Shown piece by piece: positions 15,341 to 55,345 of a stretch of DNA of 64,000 bases. A model generated the notes under the pieces. It searched no databases. It was not told the DNA's origin and saw nothing but the letters and a program-made list of their open reading frames with translations. The DNA is from Symbiodinium sp. CCMP2592 (lineage: Eukaryota > Sar > Dinophyceae > Suessiales > Symbiodiniaceae): positions 1,502,491 through 1,566,490 of the forward strand of contig CAJNDT010001001.1 in assembly GCA_905221615.1 (NCBI GenBank), in the 5' to 3' direction. Position numbers and translations under genes: made by a program. Every line of letters starts with the position of its first letter. Positions within the stretch are counted from its first letter, which is position 1.

Positions 15341-17019
15341 ATGGCATGTCCCAGCGAAGTTGCGCCAGAGCTGCTCGACAGCCACGAAAACCCTGTCGTT
15401 GCCCGCTTGGTCAGCAGAGTGGCCAGCATGGAACCTGTCGACAAAAGCATCCTCAGAGCGACTCCCGCTTGGCAAGTGCTACAATCCTTCGGTGCTGCCT
15501 TGCGGTGGACCAACCAGGATTTGTATGAACGGAGCTTCCCAGTGAAGTTGATCAAAGTTTTTTGGAGCCACAGCTGGCATGGCAACAACTACATGAAGAG
15601 GCTGCTGTTGCTTTTGCTGTACAACGGGCCTGCTGCAGCAATTACTGCCACCATCTCAGCTCTGTTGGTGATGTGGTTGCAGATTGCGGGGTTACTTCCT
15701 GGCATCCTAAGAGTTACTGGGCCTCGGAGTATCATACTTCAATTTTGTCTGGGACCTGTTTGTTAATTGAAGGGAACCATCAATCTATATTTTGTCTCCA
15801 CGGTTACTTCAAACCCCAGGTTTCCAGGACGCCGCTCGATCGAGGAATGGAGCTGGTGTTTTTTCCGTGGTGTACGCTGACGGCAGGGTTTGTCTTCGTG
15901 GTCGTGCTTCTGATATGGAATTCGAGGGTCTTGATCTTCCTTGACCAGGTATGTATCAATCAGAGGGATGCAGAGCAAAAGGCCAAGGGAATTATGAGCA
16001 TTGGCGCCTTCCTCAAGTACTCCGAGCAGTTTTTGCTTGTTTGGGATAGCACTTATGCTGGGCGCCTATGGTGCCTGCTAGAGCTTGCAGCATTCCTGAC
16101 AAGTCATCAACAGCCCGAGAAGAAAGTTACTATCAGACTGACAGCCATGGCCCCCTGCATCTTGGGCGTTGGATTTGCCCTCTGGGCTTCGATGATACAT
16201 TTCATTTTGTCTAGCGAGCAAACTCCTCTGGACACCCTGGTGCTTCTGCTGACACGGTGGTTCTTTCTATACGTTACCGCATCGTACCTGCGTGAGCACT
16301 ACCGAAGCACGGAGATTCTGCTCAAGCAGCTTTCTGACTTCACAGTTCAAGGTGCCCGTTGTCATTGCTGCAACGATGGAGAGATTTGTACTGCCAGTGT
16401 CTGTGATCGTGCAATCATAGATCGATGCCTTCAAATATGGTATGGGTCTGTCGAGGCCTTCGAGGTGACTGTAAGGACGCGTGTCAAAGCCATGCTATAC
16501 CGCCAATTGGGTGGATTGTTGTTTCCGTATGGTTGGCAAGTCATTGGTTCCTTGCCTCTCTTTTGGGGCTTTGCAGATATCATCGCAGCTCGCGGACGTA
16601 TCGGAAACTGGAACGTGGCGGGAATCTTCTTCCTGGGTGCTCTCACTTGGTGTTTCTTTCTGTTTCCGTTCATCTTCCAAGCGACACTGCTTTTGGCGGG
16701 TTATTTTCGCCAGCAGCAGAGCCACGTCTGGCTGGACAGGCTGAAAAGCGCTGCCGTGGCATTTGTGCTGACTGCACTATCTTTTGTCTTTCTGTGGACA
16801 TCGAGTCTTATGCCTGATGTCTTCTCGGCATGTCTTTGGATGGGCGGTTCAGTGCTGCTCTTTGGAGCATCATCGGTAGTTCTCCGACATCAGGCTTGGC
16901 GAACAGAGCAGACGTTGGAGTCAATCGAAAAAGGTGCAGGGGAGTCGGGTCTGGCCGTTGTGGCTGGGAAGCCGCTTGGGGATGAGCTTTCAGTCGATCC
17001 CCAGAGCATGTCAGCCTGA
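15341..17019 (+). CDS. Multi-pass membrane protein with TIR-like core, two exons
   Basis: Two open frames join across a 107-bp intron (exon 1 15341-15712, exon 2 15820-17019) to give about 523 residues. Residues 76-80 read SHSWH, 165-172 LDQVCINQ and 207-213 LWCLLEL. This order resembles TIR boxes, and Glu212 sits where the catalytic Glu of NAD-cleaving TIR domains sits (WCLxEL). About eight hydrophobic segments are visible (near 87-115, 134-157, 234-255, 262-280, 358-378, 390-418, 433-453, 459-478). The first two lie between the SHSWH and LDQVCINQ boxes, so the core is split by membrane helices. A Cys-rich patch (CHCC, 305-308) follows. From memory, dinoflagellates have a large family of this pattern. 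I chose the ATG at 15341 because the N-terminal frame is open from there through the SHSWH box. NADase or signalling activity is inference. A purely structural role is equally possible. Confidence 0.8.
15713..15819 (+). other. Intron of the TIR-like membrane protein gene
   Basis: It starts GT at 15713 and ends AG at 15818-15819, followed by G, the AG|G acceptor typical of dinoflagellates. It is phase 0 on both sides and joins the frame holding SHSWH to the frame holding LDQVCINQ. Without it exon 1 would run to a stop at 15764-15766. An alternative is a GC donor near 15720 with the acceptor at 15826-15827, which also restores the frame. Confidence 0.6.
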
Positions 17020-18639: not shown

Positions 18640-18845
18640 TCCTTAGGGTTTAGGATTTTTAGAGTTTGGGGTTTTTAGGGTTTAGGGTTTAGGGGTTTAG
18701 GGTTTAGGGGTTTAGGGTTTAGGGGTTTAGGGTCTAGAGTTTCTAGGGTTTAAGGGTTTAGGGTTTCTAGTTTCTGGGGTTTAGGGTTTAGGGGTTTGGG
18801 GCTTAGGGGTTTAGGGTTTAGGGGTTTTGGGTTTATTGGCTATAA
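18640..18845. repeat. TTTAGGG-type telomere-like block
   Basis: Dense TTTAGGG/TTTAGGGG tandem words on the + strand, inverted relative to the block just upstream, with an 80-base unrelated spacer. Confidence 0.75.
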
Positions 18846-21791: not shown

Positions 21792-21798
21792 CCAGATT
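21787..21798. repeat. Target-site duplication, 3' side of the LINE
   Basis: ACAACCCAGATT is identical to 34253-34264. The match stops on both sides after 12 bases. Its first eight bases are the last bases of a palindromic element (21701-21791), so the LINE landed at the edge of that element. Confidence 0.75.
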
Positions 21799-21863
21799 CT
21801 GTTTCTGTTTCTGTGGTTGGATCGTCGAGCCGCGTCTTGCGGCGCATCCCAAAAATGGTGAAT
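21799..21863 (-). other. LINE 3' UTR with CAGAAA-type tail
   Basis: Sixty-five bases between the RT stop and the target-site duplication. On the minus strand it ends CACAGAAACAGAAACAG, a short hexamer run, rather than poly(A). Confidence 0.55.
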
Positions 21864-24800
21864 TCAAGACTGACGTGCATACAAACCCTGTGTCCAGTAT
21901 GAGCGGGTAATGTCACGTGGACCTTCGGTAGACCTAGCTGCGATGTAGGCCTCAATCCATTCAGTGACCTCGGGAGCAGGTCGGTAGATAGGACGGAAGA
22001 TGTCCAAGGTGACATCCTCTGAGAGGAAGTCAATGCCCGCCAACCTTTCGTCTGCGGTGGGAAGGACTGGATGATAAACCCAACTGGTCTGTTCGGTGCC
22101 ACGATAGGACTGCCACTTACCTTTTTTAAGAAGGGCCTCCCGCCGTTTATCGGCAGCCTCAACAGTCCGTATCTGCTCAATGGACAAGGGAGGTACCAGG
22201 CAGCTCATCCTACGAAGGCAGACGTCACACCGTTTAAGATGGAGCTGTACCTGGTAAGGGGTGCCATACCACTTATTGCAGGCAAGGCAATAAGGGCCAA
22301 ACGTGAAGTGTCGAGAAGGACTCCACACGCGGTGTCGTCTGGCTAAATGAGCACCCAGGTGTTTCCGCAACGGGAATGTCTTCTCACAGAGATAACAGGA
22401 GAAGACTGGTGGAGGGTCGGCACCTGCTGTGCCTTGTGAGGACGCAACTGTGTGCTGAGGATCACCGTGACGCACACAAGTATCCTTAGAGGATCGGTCC
22501 GTCAGATGCTCTAACTCTGCAACAAACAGTTTCTGTGCCTTCTTGACCTGGTGCAACCACCATTTGGGGTCCTCGACCAAGGAATCCAATAAGGCATAGA
22601 CCGGATCTTGCCTATGAAAGACGTCTCGAATGGCGGGCACATACTGACCGACAAGAGATATGTCGTGCGCAAGTTGTTGCAACCACGAGCTGGGTCTGTG
22701 CTGCTCATAGTGTAACAGTATGGCGTGCCTGAGAGCTGTTGGTCCATGCAGTGTAAGCTGATGTAAGAACGCAGCACGTGCGTGTGCGAGCGCGAGTGGT
22801 GGCGAAGGCGCCTGTGCAAGATGCAAAACCTGAAGGCTGGAGGGCTGTTTTTCTGGAGCAACTCTAGGACAGAGTGCCCGCCAAACCTTGACGTACGCAC
22901 GATCCCAGGTGCGCTGATGGATGGCCGCAGGCAAGACAAGGGCGGACCCGGAGTGTACCAACCTAGAAACTGCAAGCGCGCGAAGGAGGGATCTGCGAAC
23001 GGGTAGGGGAATATCGCGGTTGCTGAAGAGCTGGTGGCGGAGTGGCTTGGTGACACCAAGAGCCTGTGACTGACGTAAAAGGAGGTCTGCCCTGGGAACT
23101 CCGTTCGACGTCAGAATACCTCCAAGGTGTCGGTAGGCATGGACTATAGGCATGATATGTTGCTCGGAAGTGACAGAATCATGCACAGACAATCCATAGC
23201 CCTCCTGAGTCTCAACGACATGGTTGGAGTGGCGCCGCCAATCATGCGAGGCAGGAAGCAGCACAGCGGTTTTTGCAACATCGAATGTTAACTTCATGCC
23301 AATGGCAGACGCTTGTGCCGTCGCAACCTCAATCGTGCGCACAATGCGATGTAGGAGGGTCTCGGGAACACTCCCGGTAACTGGCAGATAGTAGTCGTCC
23401 GCCCATGCTGGGCATGAAAGGTGCTGAGCAGTGGGATCTTCGGCGCCTGTAGCCCAGGGATGCTGATGGCGTAGAGGGTCGAGTGGGGGGAGCAGCTCTC
23501 CTTGTTGCAGGGCTCCTGAAAGGGTTTGCAAATATGCCCCAAAAGCTAGTGCGAAGAGTATGTCTGCGGCTGGATCACCTGGTCGTGTACCGCAAAAGGT
23601 CATGGTGAGAACGTCATAAGCCTCAATTCTAAACCACGTGGCCCTCATCATGTCTTGAATGAGTGCGACAAGCTGTTCAGGAGTCTCAAGACTGGGCAGA
23701 ATGGCAAGACGTTGCAGCTGACCCATCAATTCCTCAGTAGCTTGATGTGGCACTCCAATGCGGTGCAGGAGCTCCAGCAGGTGAGCATCCGTGTCATGAC
23801 AAGGCAGAAGGGTTTGCCTCAGGACGCGGTAGAAAGCTGCTTGGACATCCACAAAGATTAGCCCCCAAAGCTTCTTTTGTGCGTGGTGCTGCAGCTGGAA
23901 ACTCCGAGCTGTAAGCGAAATAGCCTCTATGCCTATACCTCCCAGGGCACCAAGCTGTAGCGGAAGTTTGCTGGAGGCATGGACAGGGATAAGTTGGTTC
24001 CTGAGGAACCTGTGATAGATTTTTGCAGGCACTGAGGAAACGAGTATAGAGCGAAAGTGGTTGCACTGTAAGGAGGCCCCAATCTTCTTGGCGAGGCAGC
24101 ACAACACACCTCCTCTGAACTCGATGGGTTCTCGTAGAGAGAGGGTTGTTTTGAGTGTTATCGGCAGCAGACTCAGAGCGGCAGCAGCAGGGTTGATGCG
24201 CAATAGGTCAGCGGTTATACCGTCGGGCCCGGAGGCCTTGTTGGCCTTAAGCCGCAGGATGATGCCTTCAAGATCCAACAAGGTAGGGATGGAACGGACA
24301 TCAAAAGGTGCTTGTGGCTGTGCCTGCCGGTGAAAACACTCGCTGTATTCCTCAGCGCGTACGACGACCCCGGCTTCTTGGCTTGCAAAGTGCCGGCGCC
24401 AACATTCCGCCTTTTCTTGAGGACTTCGGACGTAGTTACCGTGTTCATCAAGAATGGTGGGGAGAGGGCGGAGGCCACTACGTCTGGCAGAGCGAGCCTT
24501 AGGAAAAGCTCGCTTGACCGCCTTATATAGCTCAGAGGGATTACGCAAGTCCTGGAGACTGACCTGTGTGACAAGACTGTCTAGATAGCCGATCCTGTCA
24601 GCCTCGACACTTTTTCGAGATTGTCGGACGAAGTACTGGAGTAGTGCGGAAGCAAAGGCTTCGCTGTAATCCAGTTCGCGTAACCAGGAGCTGGCGGCTC
24701 GTCTCGCAGCAAGCCCAAAGGTTTGACCACCACACGCAAGCCGGAATGCAGCGAAAGCAATGAGTCGAAGTCGTCGATGCCTTTCTGCTGTTTCGGCACG

Positions 24801-25970
24801 CAGGTACTGTCGCAACGCCCTACAGTGTCGGACAAGGTCGAGTGTGGCATGCTGAAGGAATGGCTGACGGGCCTGTGGTCGGTCGACCGAAGTGATGGAG
24901 CATCCAGCCTCGACCCATGTGTCGACGAAAGCCCTGTATTGATCGTCAACATCTCGATCCCAAGCGGCGGTGGGCAATTGTGAAAGAAGCTGTTGCTGCA
25001 GGCGGCATTTCTCTGGATTATCATCCTTGCGAGGTCGGACACACTTACGACGGCATTGGTTATATGCCGTAGCTAAAACCTGTCTATCATAGCGGACTGT
25101 AACCTTAACGGGATGGTGATCCTCTCTAAGCTGAAGGGCCTCAAACCCAACGAGGACCGAGGAAGTGACATAGAAAGACTTCCAGTCCAGGGGTAGCGCA
25201 ACAAAATCAAGTCTGTGGTCCAGTCCCATGCATGATCGCCATGTGCCGGCGGGCCCTTGATGCATAGCTGCACATGTGGATGGCAGAAAAAGGGCAGCCT
25301 GGATCAGCATCTCATGAAACATGGAACCCGCAGGATTTTCTTCGTCGGCCTGATGTCCTGAGACATGCTCGGTCTCGATACTTCCAACATGGGCATTGGT
25401 GTCAAACAGGCAGATGAGGTCGGCCCCTGCAGGTTTTTTGGCAGCATCGGTGGCTCGTTGTCGCCAGAAGTCGGCGACCTCTTGGTAAGGGTGGTTGGCG
25501 AGCGAAGGTGCATGCCCCACAATGACAAACAGCTTGAGATGTGGGGCTGTAATGGTAGCATTGAGATGTCTCTCAGAGTGTCCAAGCACAACGACGTGAC
25601 TCTCCTTGAAATATAGCTTGGTATCTCGGATCACAGCGTAAGGCTCTGATCGTGACAGCCATAGAGCGCACCCACCAACACCACGGTCAGTGGCAGCTGA
25701 CTGGAAGATAAAGTAGCGATCATCTGTTGCAGTGACTGACTCGGGCAGGCGTGTCTCCTGGAGCCCAATAATGTGTGGACGATGGACGTCCAGTTCTCGC
25801 TGCAGAATGGCCTTTCTGCCGATCATACGCATGCCGACTGCAGCCTGAGACCCTGCACGACCTTTGACATCCCTGAGTGTCAGCACGTTGTAAGAGACAC
25901 GTGATGTGATAAGTGATGTGACCTTCAGGGTCGCTGGCAGGTTGTACACCTTGTTGTGGGGCAGGAACAA
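21864..25970 (-). CDS. LINE ORF2, fourth segment: EEP endonuclease, reverse transcriptase, zinc fingers
   Basis: 1,368 residues from a nominal TTG; coding really continues from the RNase H frame by a +1 change, and a TAG lies just upstream in this frame. Endonuclease motifs: YNVLTLRD (27-34), GLQETR with Glu72, FDTNAH with Asp190/Asn192, RLDFV (Asp255) and EDHHPV (Asp284/His285). Reverse transcriptase: NKASGPDGIT (577-586), motif A FVDVQAAF (Asp708), motif B GTRPGDPAAD (794-803) and motif C WADDY (Asp858/Asp859), with Trp-Ala instead of the usual Tyr-Ala. A C2H2 finger lies at 1192-1213 (CYLC...H...H) and a C2HC-type finger at about 1228-1248; these may bind target DNA or element RNA. The EEP domain nicks DNA for target-primed reverse transcription. 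All catalytic residues are present, so this part looks functional. Confidence 0.9.
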   Translation of the reverse strand: MFLPHNKVYNLPATLKVTSLITSRVSYNVLTLRDVKGRAGSQAAVGMRMIGRKAILQRELDVHRPHIIGLQETRLPESVTATDDRYFIFQSAATDRGVGGCALWLSRSEPYAVIRDTKLYFKESHVVVLGHSERHLNATITAPHLKLFVIVGHAPSLANHPYQEVADFWRQRATDAAKKPAGADLICLFDTNAHVGSIETEHVSGHQADEENPAGSMFHEMLIQAALFLPSTCAAMHQGPAGTWRSCMGLDHRLDFVALPLDWKSFYVTSSVLVGFEALQLREDHHPVKVTVRYDRQVLATAYNQCRRKCVRPRKDDNPEKCRLQQQLLSQLPTAAWDRDVDDQYRAFVDTWVEAGCSITSVDRPQARQPFLQHATLDLVRHCRALRQYLRAETAERHRRLRLIAFAAFRLACGGQTFGLAARRAASSWLRELDYSEAFASALLQYFVRQSRKSVEADRIGYLDSLVTQVSLQDLRNPSELYKAVKRAFPKARSARRSGLRPLPTILDEHGNYVRSPQEKAECWRRHFASQEAGVVVRAEEYSECFHRQAQPQAPFDVRSIPTLLDLEGIILRLKANKASGPDGITADLLRINPAAAALSLLPITLKTTLSLREPIEFRGGVLCCLAKKIGASLQCNHFRSILVSSVPAKIYHRFLRNQLIPVHASSKLPLQLGALGGIGIEAISLTARSFQLQHHAQKKLWGLIFVDVQAAFYRVLRQTLLPCHDTDAHLLELLHRIGVPHQATEELMGQLQRLAILPSLETPEQLVALIQDMMRATWFRIEAYDVLTMTFCGTRPGDPAADILFALAFGAYLQTLSGALQQGELLPPLDPLRHQHPWATGAEDPTAQHLSCPAWADDYYLPVTGSVPETLLHRIVRTIEVATAQASAIGMKLTFDVAKTAVLLPASHDWRRHSNHVVETQEGYGLSVHDSVTSEQHIMPIVHAYRHLGGILTSNGVPRADLLLRQSQALGVTKPLRHQLFSNRDIPLPVRRSLLRALAVSRLVHSGSALVLPAAIHQRTWDRAYVKVWRALCPRVAPEKQPSSLQVLHLAQAPSPPLALAHARAAFLHQLTLHGPTALRHAILLHYEQHRPSSWLQQLAHDISLVGQYVPAIRDVFHRQDPVYALLDSLVEDPKWWLHQVKKAQKLFVAELEHLTDRSSKDTCVRHGDPQHTVASSQGTAGADPPPVFSCYLCEKTFPLRKHLGAHLARRHRVWSPSRHFTFGPYCLACNKWYGTPYQVQLHLKRCDVCLRRMSCLVPPLSIEQIRTVEAADKRREALLKKGKWQSYRGTEQTSWVYHPVLPTADERLAGIDFLSEDVTLDIFRPIYRPAPEVTEWIEAYIAARSTEGPRDITRSYWTQGLYARQS

Positions 25971-26778
25971 CAGGAGGGTCTAGCTGTCGGAGTCTAGTAG
26001 CCTCGGATTCCATGGCAAAGAGTGTGGGAACGTCATGTCGGGGGCCTGCAAGCATCCATGCCCAGGCAAATAAGGGATATGCGCAGAAGCAGGCTGGCCA
26101 TTTTGGCTGGCAGCGTTCCCATACATCAGTGACACGACGCCGTGCTGTCTTGGCAACTGCATCCGATGCTTCATTGCCCAAGGCTCCAGAGTGTCCCTGA
26201 ACATGTCTGCCACAGACCTGTGTAAGCCTCGCGAGAAGTTGTCGCAGCGCAATGGTTGCCTGAATAAGCGAAGCTCCGACCTCCGGGATGGGGTACGAAA
26301 GCTGCTTCCATTCGCCAAAAACACAGTTGCCTGCAGCATTGGCATCGTAGTAAAAGGTCACCGTTGCATGGTAGGCCGGTGTGTGCTCAACAGCCCAAAC
26401 CAGACTCCAGAAGAGCGCGAGCATTTCCCCTGTGAGGGCTGTGTCGCCAGCTTCCCCAACGTGGAAAGGGGTGTCTGGCGGAGTGGCCTGTTCACCAGCG
26501 CCGCCATAGAAATATAGGCTGTCGCTGTATCTGTACCCAGCTGGTTGTGGCACTATGTCACGGAGTGTCAGGGCCTGTTTTTGGTGACATGTGACCGGCA
26601 AAGCCTCAGTCAACCGAATGAGACGCGGCGGATGACGGTCGTGGACCGTCTCAAGTTGGCAGTGGAAGTGCTCAACCAAAGTGTCGAGAAGAGTAACGGC
26701 ATTGAAGAAAGCATCAGAATCTGGCCGACAAAGCGCTTCCTCAAGGAGGGTGGGGCCTGGCAGCTCAACAGCGAACGC
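25720..26778 (-). CDS. LINE ORF2, third segment: RNase H domain
   Basis: The frame opens at 26778, just after an in-frame TAG and 11 bases before the previous segment's stop, and is +1 relative to it. Counting from the TTG at 26679, the RNase H carboxylates appear as Asp53 (YSDSLYFYGG), Glu85 (LTGEMLALF), Asp112 (YYDANAAG) and Asp173 (NEASDAVAK), with His163 in the GHSG loop. All four acidic positions are kept, so the fold is probably catalytic and would remove template RNA during reverse transcription. Residues after about 235 (below about 25975) are likely out-of-frame, because the endonuclease frame takes over there. An RNase H placed before the endonuclease and RT is unusual for LINEs. 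Confidence 0.7.
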   Translation of the reverse strand, partial: AFAVELPGPTLLEEALCRPDSDAFFNAVTLLDTLVEHFHCQLETVHDRHPPRLIRLTEALPVTCHQKQALTLRDIVPQPAGYRYSDSLYFYGGAGEQATPPDTPFHVGEAGDTALTGEMLALFWSLVWAVEHTPAYHATVTFYYDANAAGNCVFGEWKQLSYPIPEVGASLIQATIALRQLLARLTQVCGRHVQGHSGALGNEASDAVAKTARRRVTDVWERCQPKWPACFCAYPLFAWAWMLAGPRHDVPTLFAMESEATRLRQLDPPVVPAPQQGVQPASDPEGHITYHITCLLQRADTQGCQRSCRVSGCSRHAYDRQKGHSAARTGRPSSTHYWAPGDTPARVSHCNR

Positions 26779-29700
26779 CTATTTCTTCCGGATCATGACA
26801 GCCATCAGGGTAGAGGAAGGGAGCGCGGTCCCTGATAGTATCTATCCGACCACGACACGGCGTAGGAACGGCCCGTGAAATGTGTACCCGGCCAACAGGA
26901 TCAGAAGAGTGGCGGCATGATGCTGTGAAGGATCTGTCAATGGCAGTGCTACTGCCAAGAACGGTCGTGACATCGGGACAGGCGGATGAATCAGTGGAAA
27001 ATGTAGGGACTGTACGGTCGTGACCAATGTTCTGGTAGAGGTCAAGACCATGGGCCCCCCATTGAGGAGAGAATTGCATAGCAGCTACCTGCTGGTAGCA
27101 GAGTAGACACTGAAAACATACTAACCCCAAAGCAAATCGTGGACCAGTGGCAACCCCTCCATGGACAAGTGGACAGCCACAAAGGCTCGCAAGGACTGGG
27201 AAAAGGCTGTGCAGCAACGCCGGAAGAAGGACGGTGGTGACAGAGGTGTCCCCGGGCGGCCCTGTAGGGAGGGCTTCGTGTATGCAAACCCAGTTCCACA
27301 TAACTCCAATATCACATCGAGCAAGAAAGGCGCAGCTGACAGCGAAAACACACAGGACGGACAGTCCAACAGTGCAGTCATGGCTGATGCGGCGGCCGGC
27401 TGTGTATGGACAACCTGCATAGCATACTCCCTGATTATAGTGGACAGTAGGCGAGGAAGTAGTGTACGCAGAGGGTTGTTGGCGTGACCCTCCGGTGCCA
27501 GCATCATCGCCGTGTGAGGTCCCCTCGGAAGGTGCGACCGATGATGTGTCAGGCTGGGAGTCAGCAGGATGATCGGGGATGTCCGTGTTATGGCTGGGTC
27601 GGCGACCATCGTCCGGCGGATCATTCCCGTCCTCATCATCGGAACTGGAGAGGTCATGGGGCGGAGGGTAGTAGAAATAGATTTCAACGACATCCCCATC
27701 CTCGACATGCAGTGTCCTGAGAAGTGGCCTGATGGCTGATCTGTTGCGAACATACCCGAAGACTGCACCTGTAGGCATTCGAGGAGTAAATCTAGCAAGA
27801 ATGCTGTCAACAGGAAGCCGCCCTTGTGGCGCACGATACCAGGAAAAGCCCAACAGCACAGGCCGCAAGTCCAATATACATATGGCATCCCGGTGTCTGT
27901 CTCTGGTGGACGCGACGTTGGTAGTGGCAACATAAAGATGTCGGACGAGCTGGCCGCACGAAGTATGATCTGTGAGAGGAGGACGCGCAGGACATAAAAG
28001 CAAGCGTCCTGGCTGCACAGCTAAGAGCTGCGCGAGATCCTGCCTAAAATGCCGTCGGCGCGTGGGTGCAACGGTAAAGCGCAGACGTCGGTCATCAGCA
28101 AGTACCCAAGCATGTTCAGCGTAGTCGCCCGGGAAGAGCCAAGTGGTGCACCAACCTGTTTCACTGCGAAGCATTGCAGCAAGATCAGATTGATACTGTG
28201 GCAGTTCTCCGGCCCGCGAGATCTGAATAAGGTCTCCAGATTCTAGATCAATCGGATAGTTATCTGGAATGGGCCAAGGCATTGTTCGAACAAATACAGC
28301 GAAATTGTCTGTGTCGTCAATATCTGCGGCAGAAAGGAGCATCCGACGATTGACGCGCTCGGGGAGCGACAGACAAAAAACTCCACCTCCGATGTGTGTG
28401 CAATCAAACGCAACAATGGAAGTGTGGAGTCTCCAGGGCGGTAGGAGCACGCACAAAGCAGCCTGTGGCCAAGGTTGTGGTCGAACTGGCCGCACGATGG
28501 GAAACCTATCGTGAAAATAGGGCTCTCGGGCAGCATCAACAATGGCAACGGCTTCAGCAGTAGATATGCCTTTCGGAAGTCGCACCGTAAGCCATTCTGG
28601 AACACAGTCTTGACCCAGGAGGAAGAAAGGGGCGTTAATGTAGTCACACACTGCTGTTTGCGAACCAGGAGGCATGGTGTCAGGAGCTGGAACTGGCGAG
28701 GACGTCTCGTCAGCAGCTGAACCAGCTGCATTACGGGACGTATGTGCAGCAACACGGTCAGCAGGTGCAGCATCACTAGGTGACTCCTGACGTCCTCGGT
28801 GACTGTCAGAGCTGGTGGCATCCGGAGTGAGCATGGTCTGACATACTGGCAGTTCCTTAATCGGCTGCTGGCTTGCGGCAATGCGGACAATGTGATGCAT
28901 CTGTAGCTTAACGCCCGGACCAACAGCATGGTGATGTGGGGCGATAGCAGCGACGTCATGGGCGACTGTCATGAGTTGAGGGACGGGGAATACAGCGGTA
29001 AAACGGACAGCACAGACGGGGCGAGTGCACTTATCAAACACAGCACGCACAACTGAGCTACGACCATGTGTCTGACTGTTCTCAATGGAAGGTGGTGGCG
29101 CGGAGTCAGGTGCAGTATCTGGTACTGACGCTGTGCGCCGACGTACACGCCTGGCCGCATGTGACCCTCGATCAGCTTGAGAACCGCCAGGACCGGCAGA
29201 ACCCGCAGGTCCATCCTCCCCGCCTGAGGAGTCTGCATCAGATGAATCAGGAGAGACAGATGCTTGACGGTTGGCGATGAAATCAACTGTAACAACCTCA
29301 CCAGCATGTACATGGAGTGTGCCTAAGACATCCCTGCGACCGCCAAGTATGCGAACATGAGTGCCGATGGGTGCCTTGGGAGTGGCATCCGCAAGCAGAA
29401 GTGCCTCATCAACAATGCCGTCATTGGCAAAGCCCCATGTCAGACTACCGAGGATGGGCCTAGCGTCGTATATGTAGACAACTTCATGACGACGAGTGTG
29501 AGCCGAGTCGACAGGATTGTCACTGGACACAACAAGTACATTGTCAGCAAGAATGCCTTGGTCGAACGAATCCCGTAATGGTGGTCGGGCAGGCTGCAAT
29601 ATAAAGCCCGGGTTCAGCTCGAGAGCCTCGGTGACAAACTGCCGTACAAACCTTTCATTGTTGGGTGGCATCTGCAACCGGACGGCGACTTCATCCGTCA

Positions 29701-30151
29701 TGACATGCAGCCATGTACCTGGTCGTACAGGCAAAGAGGGATTTGGCTCCCAACCTGCGGTGTCCAAGAGTCGGGCAGAGATGTCTTGATCAACACCAAG
29801 GACTTCACCAATCGGCAGGAAGCGAACGCAAAAACCGCTTGCAAGCTCAATGGACTCAGCGTCGGTCATAGGTCCTGCGAGGCCTGGGACATAGACCTCA
29901 AGATCGGAGTCCGCAGGGAAGCCAGCTGTGGAAAGAAGGGTGGCTCTGTCAGCCCGGTCTTTGACCTCTGCACAAAAAACCGTTGCATTGACTCGTGAGC
30001 AGTCGAGTATGACATAGATGGTGCGACACCAGACTGGAAGCGCAAGCAGTGTGGCGTAACCATTTACAGGCTGTGGCTGTGCAGGCTGAACCCAAGAGAA
30101 GCGCTGACGACGCAGAGTCGGCCTGGCTGCTTGTATCCTATCATGGATCAA
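26765..30151 (-). CDS. LINE ORF2, second segment: repeat modules 2 and 3, membrane-like tail
   Basis: 1,128 residues. The nominal start at 30151 is a TTG and is probably not a real start: the first residues align with the middle of module 2, whose beginning (YIPEVLTLLVPG) is in the previous frame. Module 2 covers residues 1-293 and module 3 residues 516-834. Shared landmarks are LLALPVW / VLLPPW, LASGFCVRF / LESGDLIQI, LQPARPPLRD / LCPARPPLTD, and YIYDARPILG / CILDLRPVLLG. Each module ends in a Ser/Asp linker (SSDADSSGGED; SSSDDEDGNDPPDD). Residues 926-945, 968-990 and 1003-1025 are hydrophobic and could span a membrane. The end (RAVPTPCRGRID) leads into the RNase H segment one frame on. Module function is unknown to me. 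Confidence 0.6.
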   Translation of the reverse strand: MIHDRIQAARPTLRRQRFSWVQPAQPQPVNGYATLLALPVWCRTIYVILDCSRVNATVFCAEVKDRADRATLLSTAGFPADSDLEVYVPGLAGPMTDAESIELASGFCVRFLPIGEVLGVDQDISARLLDTAGWEPNPSLPVRPGTWLHVMTDEVAVRLQMPPNNERFVRQFVTEALELNPGFILQPARPPLRDSFDQGILADNVLVVSSDNPVDSAHTRRHEVVYIYDARPILGSLTWGFANDGIVDEALLLADATPKAPIGTHVRILGGRRDVLGTLHVHAGEVVTVDFIANRQASVSPDSSDADSSGGEDGPAGSAGPGGSQADRGSHAARRVRRRTASVPDTAPDSAPPPSIENSQTHGRSSVVRAVFDKCTRPVCAVRFTAVFPVPQLMTVAHDVAAIAPHHHAVGPGVKLQMHHIVRIAASQQPIKELPVCQTMLTPDATSSDSHRGRQESPSDAAPADRVAAHTSRNAAGSAADETSSPVPAPDTMPPGSQTAVCDYINAPFFLLGQDCVPEWLTVRLPKGISTAEAVAIVDAAREPYFHDRFPIVRPVRPQPWPQAALCVLLPPWRLHTSIVAFDCTHIGGGVFCLSLPERVNRRMLLSAADIDDTDNFAVFVRTMPWPIPDNYPIDLESGDLIQISRAGELPQYQSDLAAMLRSETGWCTTWLFPGDYAEHAWVLADDRRLRFTVAPTRRRHFRQDLAQLLAVQPGRLLLCPARPPLTDHTSCGQLVRHLYVATTNVASTRDRHRDAICILDLRPVLLGFSWYRAPQGRLPVDSILARFTPRMPTGAVFGYVRNRSAIRPLLRTLHVEDGDVVEIYFYYPPPHDLSSSDDEDGNDPPDDGRRPSHNTDIPDHPADSQPDTSSVAPSEGTSHGDDAGTGGSRQQPSAYTTSSPTVHYNQGVCYAGCPYTAGRRISHDCTVGLSVLCVFAVSCAFLARCDIGVMWNWVCIHEALPTGPPGDTSVTTVLLPALLHSLFPVLASLCGCPLVHGGVATGPRFALGLVCFQCLLCYQQVAAMQFSPQWGAHGLDLYQNIGHDRTVPTFSTDSSACPDVTTVLGSSTAIDRSFTASCRHSSDPVGRVHISRAVPTPCRGRIDTIRDRAPFLYPDGCHDPEEIGVRC

Positions 30152-32759
30152 AGGCAGTCGGCCCGGGAACCAAGAGCGTCAGCACTTCCGGTATGTATTC
30201 GGGCACATGTATCATAAAGGTCGCAAGAAATTCGGCCTCGGTTGTAGAGGTATCGGCAGAATCGGAACTGGACTCAGCGCCGCCTCCGAGGGAATTAGAC
30301 GCACCACTGTCATGTGTGGGGCGTCTAGGAGATCTGCTTCTTGGGCGGCTGTCCTCAACGTACGTATTCTCTTGGCCACCCAAGACAGCAGCATCAGAGG
30401 TAACAACTGGATGAACATGAGGATCATCCGATAAGATCTCACTGTCAGCCTGTTCCTCAATGGCATGCTGCAACGAAACGGGGTTGGGATTGCGGCTTGG
30501 GACGTATGAAGCAAAGATGACTGCGCCTGGAGGGTAGTTGAGAATATGTTCCTGCGCAATGGCTCTTTCAAGATGCAACTCCCAACGAACAGGGGTGAAG
30601 GTGTTCAGCAGCCCGTAGAATTCGGAGAAGGGCAGTCGTCCCGTTGGTGTAGCAACAAGTTCCCATCCTTGCAAAAGTGCTCTGGTATCAACAAGCCCGA
30701 TGACAGGTGTGACACTATGTGGGCAGGACAGCTCGGTGGTCTCAGGCACAAGTCCAGAGGCACCATATATCGCCTGGCACGGGCGACCTTGTAGGGAAAC
30801 ATCGGAGATTGGTGGGACGGCTGGCTGCAGTGATAATTCATTTACCGGAATCCGAAGTATGTGAGCAACGACAGCTATATCCCCAATCGCAGTCTCCTCA
30901 GGGAAGTCAACAGCTTTGACGCCTTGGTCCGAAACCACGGCTATAATGTTGCCCCTGCGACCTGTGGGGATGTATGGGTCGCTGTCCCACGCGTACGAGG
31001 ACACTAGAATGTCTTCGAAGTAGTAATACGCGCCCGGAAGCGCGTAACGGGGCGTGAAGAACACGCACACGCCGGAATGCAGGTCAACGACTTCATCTGG
31101 AGGCAGTGGCGCCGCATTGGCACCAATGTATACGTCGACCTGGGCTTCTTCTTGTAACCCGACTAGCCGCAGCAAAGCCGAACGACTGGCAGCCGTAGGT
31201 CCGACGTCTGTGTAGAGTCTCCCATCGATGTCCTGTAAATCAAAGCACACGGCGATGTCGTTATATGCCCAGGCGGGCATAGCAAGCACAAGGGCATAAT
31301 TTGGCGACGGCATGGGTCTCACAGGAATGATGTGAGGAAACAGCCTTGCTTGGATGGGGTCACGCTCAACACTGATTAACTGTATGGCAGCAACAAGGTC
31401 AGTGGGCGGAGCAATGCGGATTTGGAACCGCTCAAGCACGTAGCCCGGGACAAGAAGTCCGACAGTCAATTCTGCGGCAGGCTCTGCATAGGCGGCACCC
31501 TCTGCATGGGCTTCAACATCGTAGTCCTGTGCATCCTCTGCAGGGAGGGTCGGCCAAGGCCTGTGATCATTGGCCTCGATTTCACGGAGATTGACAAGGA
31601 CCTCCCTGTGAGCGGCAGAGCCAGAAGAGGGCTCCTGATCAAGTCTGCAGCTACGGTGGCCATGAGAAGGTACACCTCCAGCACTTGATTGCCTGGGAGT
31701 GGCACGCGGAAGCGGTGAACCTCGGGCAGGGCTCCTGTTGGCAACGCGCCTGCGCTTGTGTCCGCGCAAAGATCCTGTGTACACCCATCCCAGACAAGGT
31801 CTATTAGGAGAACCCACAACTCCTAAGGTAACCACAAGGCTGGGTGGAACGCGGAGGGTGCAGAGATTCAGGAGTCTCCACAACGGCTCATGTCGGCCAG
31901 GAACAGCTCGCAAAAGTAAGGCACAAAGAGAAAGTGCCAAGATGCCCAAAAAGTCCAAGTACATTGGGACAACATAGTGACCGAGCAAGTTGAGGTAGCG
32001 AAGAAACAAGTCGTCTGCGCGAGTCTGATCGTGACCAGACCTAGCTGCCGTGTCGACAACAAGTGCAGCTGATTCCTGCTTTGAGGCCGTGCACCGCCGA
32101 GTGCCAGAAGGAGCGGGGCTGGTGAAACCCCCAAAACTATTAAAACACCAGTAACCAAAACCTGCCGGGAAGGACACGTATTCATCCGGCTGCTGAATGG
32201 ATAGTGTAATAGGCGATTGCTGTGTGAGTGTCACGGGGGTGCCAGTTGGACACGCGGGAGACCCTGAGCCACCGATTCTCCTCTTTGGCGCATGTACAAC
32301 TGCCCTCACGTGAACACATAACGAATTGCAGCACTTGGAGCGTGGAGCCGGAGTGACACTCAAACCAATACTGAGATTGTGCAGGAGGGCAGTATGGTCT
32401 GAGGCATCGGAAGCCAACGGCAGTGGAGGTGTAGGAGGACAAGACTGGGATGAGAAGCCAAGATTGTCCCAGTCTGCTGTAAGTCGAAACCAGCAGAGTG
32501 AAGGGCCGGAAGACGAAAGGGAGAAAGAGGTGTTGGTGTGAGTCGAAGGTCCACATGTACAAACACCCGGAGGGTGAAACCTACGGTGCTGTACAGCCTC
32601 CTCAGAATCGTACAATACAGGTCCAGCCTTCACTGTCGGGGAGGGATACAGACATCCGCGACGCAGCAGAAACAGGATAGTTCTTGACCGATAGGCAGCG
32701 CCTGCCAGCCGAACATGTCCGTCTCTTTTGCCAGCGCAGGTCTGTCCCTCCCCGAAACA
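30141..32759 (-). CDS. LINE ORF2, first segment: hydrophobic region and repeat module 1
   Basis: This frame is open from far upstream, but before 32762 it is only a shadow of ORF1, so I count it from there (about 870 residues). No ATG in this frame lies near the start; the first good one is at 31964 and opens a very hydrophobic stretch (YLDFLGILALSLCALLL) that looks like a signal or membrane anchor. The alternative is entry by -1 frameshift from ORF1 or by reinitiation. Bases 31445-30500 encode module 1 of a roughly 310-residue unit repeated twice more downstream. Its landmarks are VLAMPAW, LHSGVCVFF and LQPAVPPISD. An acidic/serine linker with RSRSPRR follows, then the first 18 or so residues of module 2, where the frame stops. 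The next frame is +1. I know no function for the module. Confidence 0.6.
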   Translation of the reverse strand, partial: CFGEGQTCAGKRDGHVRLAGAAYRSRTILFLLRRGCLYPSPTVKAGPVLYDSEEAVQHRRFHPPGVCTCGPSTHTNTSFSLSSSGPSLCWFRLTADWDNLGFSSQSCPPTPPLPLASDASDHTALLHNLSIGLSVTPAPRSKCCNSLCVHVRAVVHAPKRRIGGSGSPACPTGTPVTLTQQSPITLSIQQPDEYVSFPAGFGYWCFNSFGGFTSPAPSGTRRCTASKQESAALVVDTAARSGHDQTRADDLFLRYLNLLGHYVVPMYLDFLGILALSLCALLLRAVPGRHEPLWRLLNLCTLRVPPSLVVTLGVVGSPNRPCLGWVYTGSLRGHKRRRVANRSPARGSPLPRATPRQSSAGGVPSHGHRSCRLDQEPSSGSAAHREVLVNLREIEANDHRPWPTLPAEDAQDYDVEAHAEGAAYAEPAAELTVGLLVPGYVLERFQIRIAPPTDLVAAIQLISVERDPIQARLFPHIIPVRPMPSPNYALVLAMPAWAYNDIAVCFDLQDIDGRLYTDVGPTAASRSALLRLVGLQEEAQVDVYIGANAAPLPPDEVVDLHSGVCVFFTPRYALPGAYYYFEDILVSSYAWDSDPYIPTGRRGNIIAVVSDQGVKAVDFPEETAIGDIAVVAHILRIPVNELSLQPAVPPISDVSLQGRPCQAIYGASGLVPETTELSCPHSVTPVIGLVDTRALLQGWELVATPTGRLPFSEFYGLLNTFTPVRWELHLERAIAQEHILNYPPGAVIFASYVPSRNPNPVSLQHAIEEQADSEILSDDPHVHPVVTSDAAVLGGQENTYVEDSRPRSRSPRRPTHDSGASNSLGGGAESSSDSADTSTTEAEFLATFMIHVPEYIPEVLTLLVPGPTAFDP

Positions 32760-32761
32760 TG

Positions 32762-34015
32762 TCACTCCATGCCAGCCAGACCGGGTGGATGTGCTTGAGC
32801 ACTGTCCTCGTCGAAGTCGTCCTCGATGACTTGACATGGCACCGGTCCTGTAGGCCTCACGGCTCCGCTGGCCGTCGAGGGATCCTGTTGGTTCGTCAGC
32901 TGGGCTCGTTCGATCTCGCGTCGTCTCTCCAACTTGCCGGCCAGCTGTGAGGATGGGGAAGTTGTGTGTGCAACTCCAGACGGCAATGTCTTCACAGGCT
33001 GTCGTGGTCTGATCTGACCCGCCCCATGCTCGGTCCTGGGAGCCGATGCCACATGGGTCCCTGGGATTGCTGGCTCCTCTGTGGCCCGTTGCATTGGTCC
33101 CATCGTGTGTGTAGGAAGCTCTGCACCTGCCACGGGTTCGGCTCCGGGTCCTGGCAAAGGTGGACCTGACCGTCCACTGTCCGGAAAGGCCCCAGCATGG
33201 CCTTGGTTGGGCGACATCGCATTGTAGGGTGCGTGCTGTTCCGGAATGCGCATTGAGGGCCCGCTCGGAACGGCACTCGGAGCTGTCGTTGGGTCCACAC
33301 TTGGTCCAGGCATCGGGCCAGCAGCTCCAAGTGACTGTAGAAAGGCGAGCATGTCCGTGGACAGGCGCCGACTCGATGCTGTAGCAGCCGCTGGCTCGAC
33401 ACCCGTAGTGCCAAAGGCCCTTTGGAGTACAGCATTCGCATCGTTCTCTTCCCTTCGTTCCTGCTGCCAGGTGCGAGTAAGGTGGTCCCATGCATCCTCG
33501 ACAGGAGTGGCATCGGGCAAAGTCTCCAGAGTGTGCACTCGCCGGAGATTGGCCCTGGCTTCCTCCTGTGTACGCAAAGCCTCGCGGTAATCCTCGGCGA
33601 GGCGGTGGGCTTCCTTGGTGTACTTGTCGTGCTCGCGAAGATATGACTTCCGAAGTGACTCGAGGTAGGCAGCCCACTGTGCCTCTCGCTTGGCTTGGTT
33701 CTGTGCGATTTGCCTCACTTTCTGCTCTGCACGACGCGCACCATTCAGCGCGTCCTGAACAACACTGACCAATCTCTCGTTGGCATCCTCCATGTCCTCG
33801 TCCCCACCCTTCCTGCCAGAGCCCTTGCCTGGCACGTTCCTGGTGACCTCCATGCTGTCGTAGGTGGGGAACCTGGCATCTGACTGGCGTCCACTCGTGG
33901 CCTTGCGGTAGTCCGGCGACCACGCACCACGCCAGTAACGCCCAGCACCGCGTCCACGGGCTGAGCCTCCATGGTCTGTAGGCTGTTGTGAGCTTTTCCA
34001 TTTCGGCCAGCCCAT
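32762..34015 (-). CDS. LINE ORF1, Gag-like coiled-coil protein
   Basis: About 417 residues from the ATG at 34015 (MGWPKW...). The frame is open further upstream to 34348, but the LINE begins near 34252 and no earlier in-frame ATG lies inside it, so I take 34015. The N-terminus is Gly/Arg-rich (GRGAGRYWRG), a plausible nucleic-acid binding tail. A charged heptad-rich stretch follows (about residues 60-165, rich in Glu, Arg and Lys), likely a coiled coil for multimerisation. The C-terminal half is Pro/Ser/Thr-rich and disordered, ending in an acidic DDFDEDS patch. I see no CCHC knuckle. In LINEs the first ORF packages the RNA, so a Gag role is inferred from position and composition. ORF2 sequence begins directly after the stop in the -1 frame. 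Confidence 0.65.
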   Translation of the reverse strand: MGWPKWKSSQQPTDHGGSARGRGAGRYWRGAWSPDYRKATSGRQSDARFPTYDSMEVTRNVPGKGSGRKGGDEDMEDANERLVSVVQDALNGARRAEQKVRQIAQNQAKREAQWAAYLESLRKSYLREHDKYTKEAHRLAEDYREALRTQEEARANLRRVHTLETLPDATPVEDAWDHLTRTWQQERREENDANAVLQRAFGTTGVEPAAATASSRRLSTDMLAFLQSLGAAGPMPGPSVDPTTAPSAVPSGPSMRIPEQHAPYNAMSPNQGHAGAFPDSGRSGPPLPGPGAEPVAGAELPTHTMGPMQRATEEPAIPGTHVASAPRTEHGAGQIRPRQPVKTLPSGVAHTTSPSSQLAGKLERRREIERAQLTNQQDPSTASGAVRPTGPVPCQVIEDDFDEDSAQAHPPGLAGME

Positions 34016-34252
34016 TACACGACGGTAGCGAGGTCGTGTATGATGATCCTCCAATCGCCGGAGGTCCGCGTATCGAGGAGGAAATCCCTGTTGTAGGGAA
34101 GCTCGGACTCGTATCCGAGCTTTTGACCGACGAAGCCGTAGTCGTCGGTGCCAAGAAGGGCTGGGCGGCGCGATGGCTCTCGAAAGACTTGTGCTCCGCA
34201 CACTGGGGCTACGATGTTCCCACAGGCTCCGCTGTTGGGCAATTCGAGCCCT
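34016..34252 (-). other. LINE 5' UTR
   Basis: About 237 bases between the duplicated target site and the ORF1 ATG. LINEs usually carry an internal promoter here, but no motif is recognisable. Confidence 0.4.
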
Positions 34253-34264
34253 ACAACCCAGATT
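34253..34264. repeat. Target-site duplication, 5' side of the LINE
   Basis: This is a second exact copy of ACAACCCAGATT, just upstream (minus strand) of the LINE 5' UTR. It shows that this copy is not 5'-truncated relative to its own insertion. Confidence 0.75.
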
Positions 34265-34981
34265 ACCAATAACCCTCGGGGCCTCTTTCGTGGGCTCTTT
34301 AAGGGTTCCCTGATAAGGCTTTTTGAGGAGTAATTTGTTCGGTTCCATACGTGCTGAGGGTTTAGGGCCGTGGGGGTTTGGGGTTGAGGGTGTTTGGGGT
34401 TTAGCGCTTCAGGGGTTTAGCCATAAACCCTCGGCTGTAAGTCCAGGAGCCCAGGGATGAAGGTAGGAAAGAAGCCCTTCCCTTAAGGCGCCTTGAGGGT
34501 TACTTTAATGGTTCTATACGGGTGTTCGGGTCTACAAGCGGTTTGGATTTAAGTTGACATAGACGCTTGAAGGTTTATTCGTACCGTTTCGTAGGCTTGC
34601 GTGTATAGCGTGCGCACAACACAGCCTTGTTCTATTCACTAAGCTGGATTAAGGCTCCCTTGTGTAAGGCAGTGTAAGGACCCTTACATGAGCAGTTCTC
34701 TTAATCAGGGTCCCTTTGAGGGTCCTTTTTGTACGGGTGCCATAATAACTATTTTGGTGGCCTTACAAGGGACCCTAGTTTCGAGAACTACCTTAAACTG
34801 CCATAACCTACTTTTTTGCAGGTTCTTATTAGAAGCCCTAATATGGAATGTATAGGGGGCCCTACAAAAAAGTAGGTTTTGGTAGGTTAGTGTACCGATG
34901 TGGGATTTCCCCAGCTACCTTGATCCCACCCTCGGAGTTCGGATTCTTGGGGCTCCTGTCCGGGCCCTTTTAACGGAATCC
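34265..34981. other. Short gene-free stretch upstream of the LINE
   Basis: TTTAGGG words near 34360-34410 and one family L element. No gene. Confidence 0.5.
34801..34891. mobile_element. MITE-like palindrome, family L
   Basis: AACCTACTTTTTTGCAGG at the left, CCTACAAAAAAGTAGGTTTT at the right, with CCCTAATATGGAATG between. Confidence 0.65.
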
Positions 34982-54883: not shown

Positions 54884-55345
54884 AGGGTTGAGGGGTTTAG
54901 GAATTTGGGTTTTGGGGTTTAGGGTTTAGGGTTTAAGGGAGGGTTTAGTGTCTAGGGTTTAGGGTTTAAGGGAAGGTTTAGTTAGTTTAGTGGTTTAGGA
55001 GTTTAGGGTTTTGGGGTTTAGGGGTTTAAGGGAAGGTTTAGTGTTTAGGGTTTAGGGTTTAAGGGAAGGTTTAGTTAGTTTAGTGGTTTAGGAGTTTAGG
55101 GTTTTGGGGTTTAGGGGTTTAAGGGAAGGTTTAGTGTTTAGTTTAGGGTTTAGGGAAGGTTTAGTTAGGTGGTTTAGGAGTTTAGGGTTTTGGGGTTTAG
55201 GGGTTTAAGGGAAGGTTTAGTGTTTAGTTTAGGTTTAGGTTTAAGGTTTAAGGTTTAGGGGTTAGTTTAGTGGTTTAGGAGGTTAAGGTTTTGTTTTTAG
55301 GGGTGTAAGGGAGGGTTTTGTGTTTGGGGTTTAGGGTTTATGCCG
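54884..55345. repeat. TTTAGGG-derived minisatellite with long higher-order unit
   Basis: Built of TTTAGGG, TTTAAGGGAAGG and TTTAGTTAG words. The phrase GGAGTTTAGGGTTTTGGGG recurs near 55000, 55090 and 55173, giving a higher-order unit of roughly 85-95 bp. Confidence 0.75.

Follow-up and report, generated by a model that had tools for sequence, protein, structure and literature searches.

Arrays of predicted ubiquitin-like units in giant LINE elements of Symbiodinium sp. CCMP2592, and their discordance with the reverse transcriptase

The window analysed here is a stretch of 64,000 nucleotides from the genome of Symbiodinium sp. CCMP2592, and a retroelement occupies its minus strand from approximately position 34408 to 21797. 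All features of the element given below lie on this strand. An ORF1-like reading frame (32762–34408), which differs in frame from ORF2 and has a coiled-coil look by eye and a basic WHRR..R..RS motif near its start, is closest to that of C4975, a relative in the same genome. The ORF2 frame contains a hydrophobic, TM-like segment (31911–31988), which is followed by module M1 (30420–31472; 1 Lys, 18 Arg; four predicted ubiquitin-fold units), an RSRSPRR motif in the M1–M2 linker (30321–30341), module M2 (open part 29240–30118, with 2 Lys and 22 Arg; first part about 30144–30230, in a different frame) and module M3 (27641–28648; 1 Lys, 34 Arg), the last and most conserved of the three. Behind M3 lie a GDDAGTGGS motif (27485–27511), two hydrophobic segments in the interval between the modules and RNase H (27173–27370) and a RAVPTPCR motif (26852–26875). 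A DAGTG core follows the last module in all 11 elements examined, and a [LIV][PA]TPCR motif precedes RNase H in all 11, one of them having VATPCR. The RNase H-like region itself (25720–26778) is decayed and silent in Pfam. It is followed by an APE-type endonuclease with a connector (24300–25979; Exo_endo_phos E 2.1e-4, under the curated cut-off), a reverse transcriptase (RT) (22803–24299; LINE-1 ORF2p E 5e-4), in which WADDY is found at 23391–23405, a C-terminal region with C2H2-type zinc fingers (21864–22802; zf-C2H2_jaz E 9e-5) and a 3′ UTR (21797–21863). The sequence APKRRIGGSG was also seen between ORF1 and the TM-like segment (32262–32291), with varied forms in 9 of 10 relatives by eye.

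An APE-type endonuclease ahead of the RT and a 3′ UTR with a short tandem-repeat or poly-A tail characterise LINEs, and both are found here; the identification of the element as a giant dinoflagellate LINE, present here in decayed form, is strongly supported, and the LINE ORF2 that the earlier note had called in a dinoflagellate proved correct. The decay is seen as frame breaks close to 30150 and 26770 and in the interval 25979–25720. By eye, the 3′ UTR consists of a hairpin, GCCGC-AAGAC-GCGGC (21829–21843), and a CAGAAA tail (21797–21813), a region that is probably the 3′ end of the element. A counterpart in C1235, GCCAC-AAGAC-GTGGC, shares the AAGAC loop and has one compensatory change of a stem pair, and short repeats also lie near the 3′ ends of C1235, C561 and C4975 (all by eye). 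The AAGAC hairpin is a possible recognition site for the RT.

The three module segments reported previously are present on the minus strand and alignable across the landmarks named at that time, and the acidic, serine-rich linkers between them are real. Smith–Waterman scores of 184 (M1–M2), 207 (M1–M3) and 334 (M2–M3) were obtained, where 1000 shuffles of each pair reached at most 58, 66 and 59, with blastp E values of 1.6e-17, 3.8e-21 and 4e-39 and single-sequence hhalign probabilities of 97.2, 97.1 and 99.5%, respectively. Each module was found from a profile of the other two (E 1e-32 to 1e-46), and a wrong-frame slice standing in for M3, used as a frame control, gave no match. Absent profile similarity or differing folds had been named as outcomes that would speak against a triplication; instead the segments match, and the predicted fold of M1 has the order of that of M3. 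M2 had been read as one open frame at 30200–29270, of which the module stands but the single frame does not, because the window copy shifts frame near 30150. The view that the module lies outside the standard domains also held, since neither the window copy nor 38 module members gave a significant Pfam match. The best Pfam matches among the 38, to Multi_ubiq (E 0.032) and ThiS (E 0.047), came from one member each and are both to beta-grasp families, without being significant; PHROGs and PDB sequences likewise gave no significant match (best PDB E 0.26). No ubiquitin-type Pfam profile therefore places the module in the ubiquitin family by sequence.

The 1.1-Gb genome was also searched. M3 as query gave at least 125 scored matches among 1186 candidates and a second last module at least 121 among 1177, which together mark at least 155 distinct places, although a single element may account for more than one of them through its several modules. 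Open frames of at least 3000 codons contain 52 of the 125 M3 matches, and frames of at least 4000 contain 23, the longest having 4881. An RT query gave at least 86 scored matches among 1460 candidates. A same-strand module lies upstream of 42 of these 86, 41 of them at 4.06–5.04 kb and one at 8.18 kb, and none was found upstream when the RT places were shifted by 20 or 50 kb. The other 44 had no upstream module among the matches listed; they may be elements without modules, or their modules may fall outside the scored matches. Searches of viral contigs (RT region and module), genome contigs (module), plasmids (M3) and phages (RT), in which only close relatives can be reached, found none outside this genome. 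The dinoflagellate spliced-leader 21-mer has 429 exact matches in the genome (217 + 212; reversed control 0), which marks the host as a dinoflagellate; no element-strand match with up to two mismatches lies near a 5′ end of the elements, where relics of it were sought; two stray matches lie elsewhere.

Ten relatives were examined, giving with the window element 11 elements and 35 modules. Nine elements have three modules and two (C957b and C4900) have four, and one module of C957a is interrupted by a stop. In C4900 (L040) and C957b (L033) the fourth module is divergent and lies upstream of the other three. The modules sit upstream of the endonuclease and RT, both of which are found in all ten relatives, with the RNase H-like region in nine. 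C561, C1857, C1235, C957b and C4900 each have one frame of 3,987–4,760 codons that is already open upstream of the modules and stays unbroken until ORF2 ends; in C4668 the modules and RT also share a single frame, and four relatives are broken earlier. The ORF2 frame is open across ORF1 (34208–32760 in the window) in most relatives as well, and the first 350–443 codons of the five unbroken frames overlap ORF1. Dual coding in this overlap was considered and rejected on a dN/dS of 1.56 (one pair, C1857/C4973), and ORF2 was therefore counted from the ORF1 stop, which leaves at most approximately 3,560–4,340 residues of ORF2 proper in the five unbroken copies. Among five relatives scanned with Pfam, Exo_endo_phos was above cut-off in three and RVT_1 was found under cut-off in two. 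Of the five C-terminal pieces, four have RNase_H ahead of the endonuclease (L023, L032, L034 and L039; E 1.2e-4 to 0.015, all under the curated cut-off); C1857 and the window element gave no Pfam RNase_H match, and their RNase H-like region was found by phmmer. RNase H-bearing LINE clades (the I group) have RNase H after the RT, a position in which it is not found here, and RNase H ahead of the endonuclease is an unusual order for a LINE.

Structures were predicted for M3 and M1. The AlphaFold2 model of M3, built from 38 rows (pLDDT 94.1, pTM 0.90), shows four consecutive strand-strand-helix-strand-strand units of approximately 78 residues each, and that of M1, built from nine rows of which none was a last module, is less confident (pLDDT 72.7, pTM 0.51) and repeats this succession of strands and helices. 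When the 38-module profile was aligned with itself, positions 187–325 resembled 20–145 (E 4e-4, probability 36%) and 77–145 matched 255–325 (E 9e-4, probability 23%); each module thus seems to consist of two similar halves, a relationship weak by sequence and clear in the predicted structure. A Foldseek search of the PDB with the whole M3 model gave 1135 matches, and all 31 of those at E <= 1e-3 are ubiquitin or ubiquitin-like (UBL) chains by entry title. The top match is linear tetra-ubiquitin (7yui_A, E 5.2e-8), and many USP7 UBL arrays (from E 1.3e-7), ubiquitin complexes of ABIN-1, TNIP2 and optineurin, ISG15, di-ubiquitins and a Citrobacter multi-ubiquitin are also present, with talin FERM heads ranking just beneath. 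The predicted model thus has both the unit topology and the structural ubiquitin match expected of a beta-grasp fold, with low whole-module TM-scores (0.15–0.26 by query in the best 50 of 1135 matches), as would be expected if the angles between units differ from those in the matches. That each module of approximately 310 residues is composed of four ubiquitin-fold units is, as a prediction, well supported. The units do not look like conjugatable UBLs, as M3 has no unit-end Gly-Gly by eye and a single lysine in 336 residues.

Lysine is scarce throughout the arrays. The last modules contain 14 lysines in 3509 codons, where codon-position composition predicts 55, and their K/(K+R) ratio is 0.044. 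Upstream modules (0.125) and linkers (0.139) are also lysine-poor, less so than the last modules, compared with 0.268–0.358 in RNase H, endonuclease, RT and ORF1 (endonuclease 0.271, RT 0.327, ORF1 0.358). M1–M3 of the window together have 4 Lys and 74 Arg in 980 residues, which makes them a lysine desert. The 35 modules taken together are net acidic, at −2.9 per 100 residues. Of 23 linkers (two pieces severed by a frame change included), 14 have RSRS-type motifs, with at least one in each of the 11 elements, as against a mean of 0.81 and a maximum of 5 in 2000 shuffles; none of the 11 last modules and none of the 11 RTs has one. All 11 elements have a hydrophobic segment 495–645 nucleotides ahead of their first module, and in 8 of the 11 at least one segment above threshold follows the last module; some of these segments have AxA-like ends by eye.

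Purifying selection on the modules is well supported. Four near-copy pairs gave last-module dN/dS values of 0.22 (L006/L007), 0.11 (L010/L012), 0.12 (L011/L015) and 0.12 (L004/L005), and two more, L006/L009 (0.14) and L007/L009 (0.16), are not independent of the first; the six pairs differ at 5 to 66 nucleotides and contain no stops. In the three closest pairs, alignments of 3–4 kb are 97.0–98.4% identical, so some elements have moved recently. Between C1857 and C4973, dN/dS is 0.07 in the sole module with a defined dS (14 of the 15 module pairs had none) and 0.05 in the endonuclease/RT; dS is here close to saturation or beyond it, and codons containing stops or N were dropped. Along ORF2 (eight frames, of which three have breaks in or close to the enzyme region), the last module is approximately as conserved as the RT and the upstream modules are less so.

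Phylogenetic comparison of the modules places the last modules of all 11 elements on one side of a branch (support 93/96, marginally under the level that the program stars; 94% of bootstrap trees); the last module represents an old lineage that has become fixed. Upstream modules require several label changes on the tree and must therefore have been gained, lost or duplicated. When the window element was compared with the relatives tile by tile, the closest relative, where tiles match, was C4975 or C561 over ORF1 and the array as far as the end of M3, and C1235 over RNase H and the remainder of ORF2, which puts a chimeric joint at about 27485–26875. M3 is 61–62% identical to its counterparts in C561 and C4975, and the RT of the window is closest to C2713 and C3101 (64%) genome-wide among the matches listed. 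Judged from its sequence, the window element is a chimera.

The same discordance is general among the relatives examined. Over 55 element pairs, identity in the last module is unrelated to identity in the RT (rho −0.04, Mantel p 0.61), whereas endonuclease and RT identities go together (rho 0.81, Mantel p 0.0002); the longest RT piece only was used for C291, and the RNase H comparison covers 45 pairs, C957a having no RNase H match. Upstream modules track the last module (0.44, p 0.003) and not the RT (0.09, p 0.20) in Mantel tests. ORF1 identity did not correlate with that of the last module (rho 0.22, p 0.2) in 36 pairs of short and divergent pieces, C291 and C4973 being without ORF1 and the C561 piece having 125 residues. 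Approximately unbiased (AU) tests, for which groups were named after the trees had been seen and the long-branched C957a was excluded, reject three RT groupings on module data (p 4e-6, 8e-65 and 5e-5) and four module groupings on RT data (p 1e-67 to 1e-33). C1857 and C4975, for example, are 55% identical in the last module and 25% in the RT. Exchange of the arrays as a block between distant RT lineages, with the window copy as one such chimera, is well supported. Mere adjacency of two decayed elements, through a nested or 5′-truncated insertion or a misassembly and without recombination, would account for a window copy that is frame-broken, with one break near the joint; this is quite improbable, as the joint falls at a homologous inter-domain place on the same strand and discordance is also seen in relatives, some of them unbroken (C1857, C4900, C957b).

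As a LINE, the element is of a kind already known, from which it departs in its size, its order of domains, its ubiquitin-like arrays and the exchange of cassettes. LINE ORF2 proteins are two-enzyme machines of about 1,000–1,500 residues. The present elements share with LINE-1 and its ORF2p (PDB 8uw3) an ORF1 of coiled-coil look, an APE endonuclease, an RT, zinc fingers and a microsatellite 3′ tail, and differ in frames of up to 4,760 codons in the copies examined and 4,881 genome-wide, in the 12–16 predicted ubiquitin-like units ahead of the enzymes, in RNase H ahead of the endonuclease and in the TM-like segments. SymbioLINE-Dnmt of Symbiodinium is likewise a LINE of a dinoflagellate that has gained an accessory domain on which purifying selection acts, according to the part of PMC5890265 consulted; that domain is a DNA methyltransferase in ORF1, whereas the arrays lie in ORF2, and a Pfam scan of the window ORF1 found no DNA methylase. 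Among host proteins, the USP7 HUBL (PDB 2ylm, 4wpi), a platform for partners, also strings UBL units in tandem along a single chain (2ylm, Foldseek E 2.4e-7), at 11–12% identity; here there are four units per module and few lysines, and, unlike in USP7, no deubiquitinase was found by Pfam in the element pieces scanned. Linear polyubiquitin and bacterial multi-ubiquitin (7yui, 9d5a; E 5.2e-8 and 8.2e-4) have head-to-tail units of approximately 76–78 residues, at 8–10% identity, and differ from the almost lysine-free units described here, which in M3 lack unit-end Gly-Gly. The UBL shuttles RAD23A, UBQLN1/2 and BAG6 have long stretches that are poor in lysine and keep arginine, in some of which added lysines are ubiquitylated; these deserts are mostly disordered and lie beside a UBL, whereas here the UBL units themselves are lysine-poor (PMC10169902, in the part consulted). 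The part consulted of PMC6338049 does not mention ubiquitin, and no title or abstract opening among the open-licence PMC papers listed describes such an array.

The preferred explanation, to which a probability of roughly 40% is given, is that host ubiquitin-receptor or chromatin proteins dock at many points on the array, which would be protected from tagging by its lack of lysine and could be separated from the RT. Units resembling those of linear polyubiquitin or the USP7 HUBL would form a platform that offers many surfaces to such proteins and would thereby direct the RNP towards repair factors or sites in the nucleus and guard it from turnover. With lysine absent and arginine kept, the recruited ubiquitin machinery could not tag the element's own protein, in parallel with what has been proposed for the UBL shuttles RAD23A, UBQLN1/2 and BAG6, and the RSRS motifs of the linkers may assist targeting to the nucleus or speckles. 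If the array handles the host and the RT the template, the two could recombine, and a lineage would gain a new host interface on an old engine. The predicted fold, the selection on the modules, the scarcity of lysine, the RSRS motifs and the exchange of arrays speak for this explanation. Against it stand the low TM-scores, the lack of a significant sequence match to ubiquitin, the missing unit-end Gly-Gly in M3 and the milder lysine shortage of linkers and upstream modules, and the TM-like segments flanking the array are not an obvious match for a platform that is soluble and nuclear. The architectural or binding role suggested in the earlier note survives in one of its forms, as host-factor capture agrees with ubiquitin-like arrays and nothing was found in support of a capsid; its overall interpretation is partly supported. 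The fullest version of the docking explanation, in which a giant dinoflagellate LINE superfamily carries a nearly lysine-free polyubiquitin mimic of 12–16 units, trades it between RT lineages approximately 25% identical, commandeers host ubiquitin receptors with it and is shielded from tagging, is offered tentatively and is somewhat doubtful as a whole.

The main rival is a passive scaffold, in which the ubiquitin-like units have nothing to do with the ubiquitin system and are just a robust fold used as rods and spacers, multimerising ORF2p or spacing it within the RNP. Many proteins use beta-grasp units as general-purpose scaffolds, talin FERM lobes come just under the ubiquitin chains in the fold search, a significant sequence match to ubiquitin is absent, and module copy number varies while upstream modules turn over, all of which such a scaffold would accommodate. 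A mere spacer would have no need to lose lysine and keep arginine, however, nor would it call for a last module conserved about as well as the RT, and the scaffold is considered unlikely. The TM-like segments ahead of every array and behind most of them speak for a tether, by which the units would bind the element RNA or ORF1p and bring what they bind to a membrane-bound RT complex, as modelled on the Ubl domains of coronavirus nsp3. That the ORF1 half of the window element groups with its modules agrees with this, but the net acidity of the modules disfavours RNA binding and the identities of ORF1 and the last module are uncorrelated, so that a tether appears improbable. Were the hydrophobic segments instead a signal and an anchor, with the modules facing the ER lumen or the cell exterior as in an envelope-like array, few lysines would help to avoid ER-associated degradation and the AxA-like ends would make sense. 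N-glycosylation sequons are not enriched (15 against 17.3 expected), A2 has no invariant or nearly invariant cysteine, and the RSRS motifs point to the nucleus; a lumenal array is accordingly given very little credence, and an Env-like ectodomain was rejected for want of sequon enrichment.

ORF2 is here approximately three times its textbook size, and much of the extra length is a conserved, predicted ubiquitin-like chain. Dinoflagellate chromosomes are permanently condensed, and if the array recruits ubiquitin-system or chromatin factors, as the docking explanation holds, it would offer a handle on how retrotransposons are targeted and evade turnover in them. Exchange between arrays and RTs indicates that LINEs can evolve through recombination of domain cassettes, like the structural and replicase genes of viruses, and RT trees alone would therefore mislead. 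The elements are also a source of natural, nearly lysine-free polyubiquitin-like proteins. Elsewhere in the window, an open frame of 485 codons on the plus strand (15562–17019), with several hydrophobic stretches and no Pfam match, is possibly a host membrane protein, and interstitial telomere-like repeat arrays of the TTTAGGG type are scattered through it, for example at 18643–18835 and 54884–55340.
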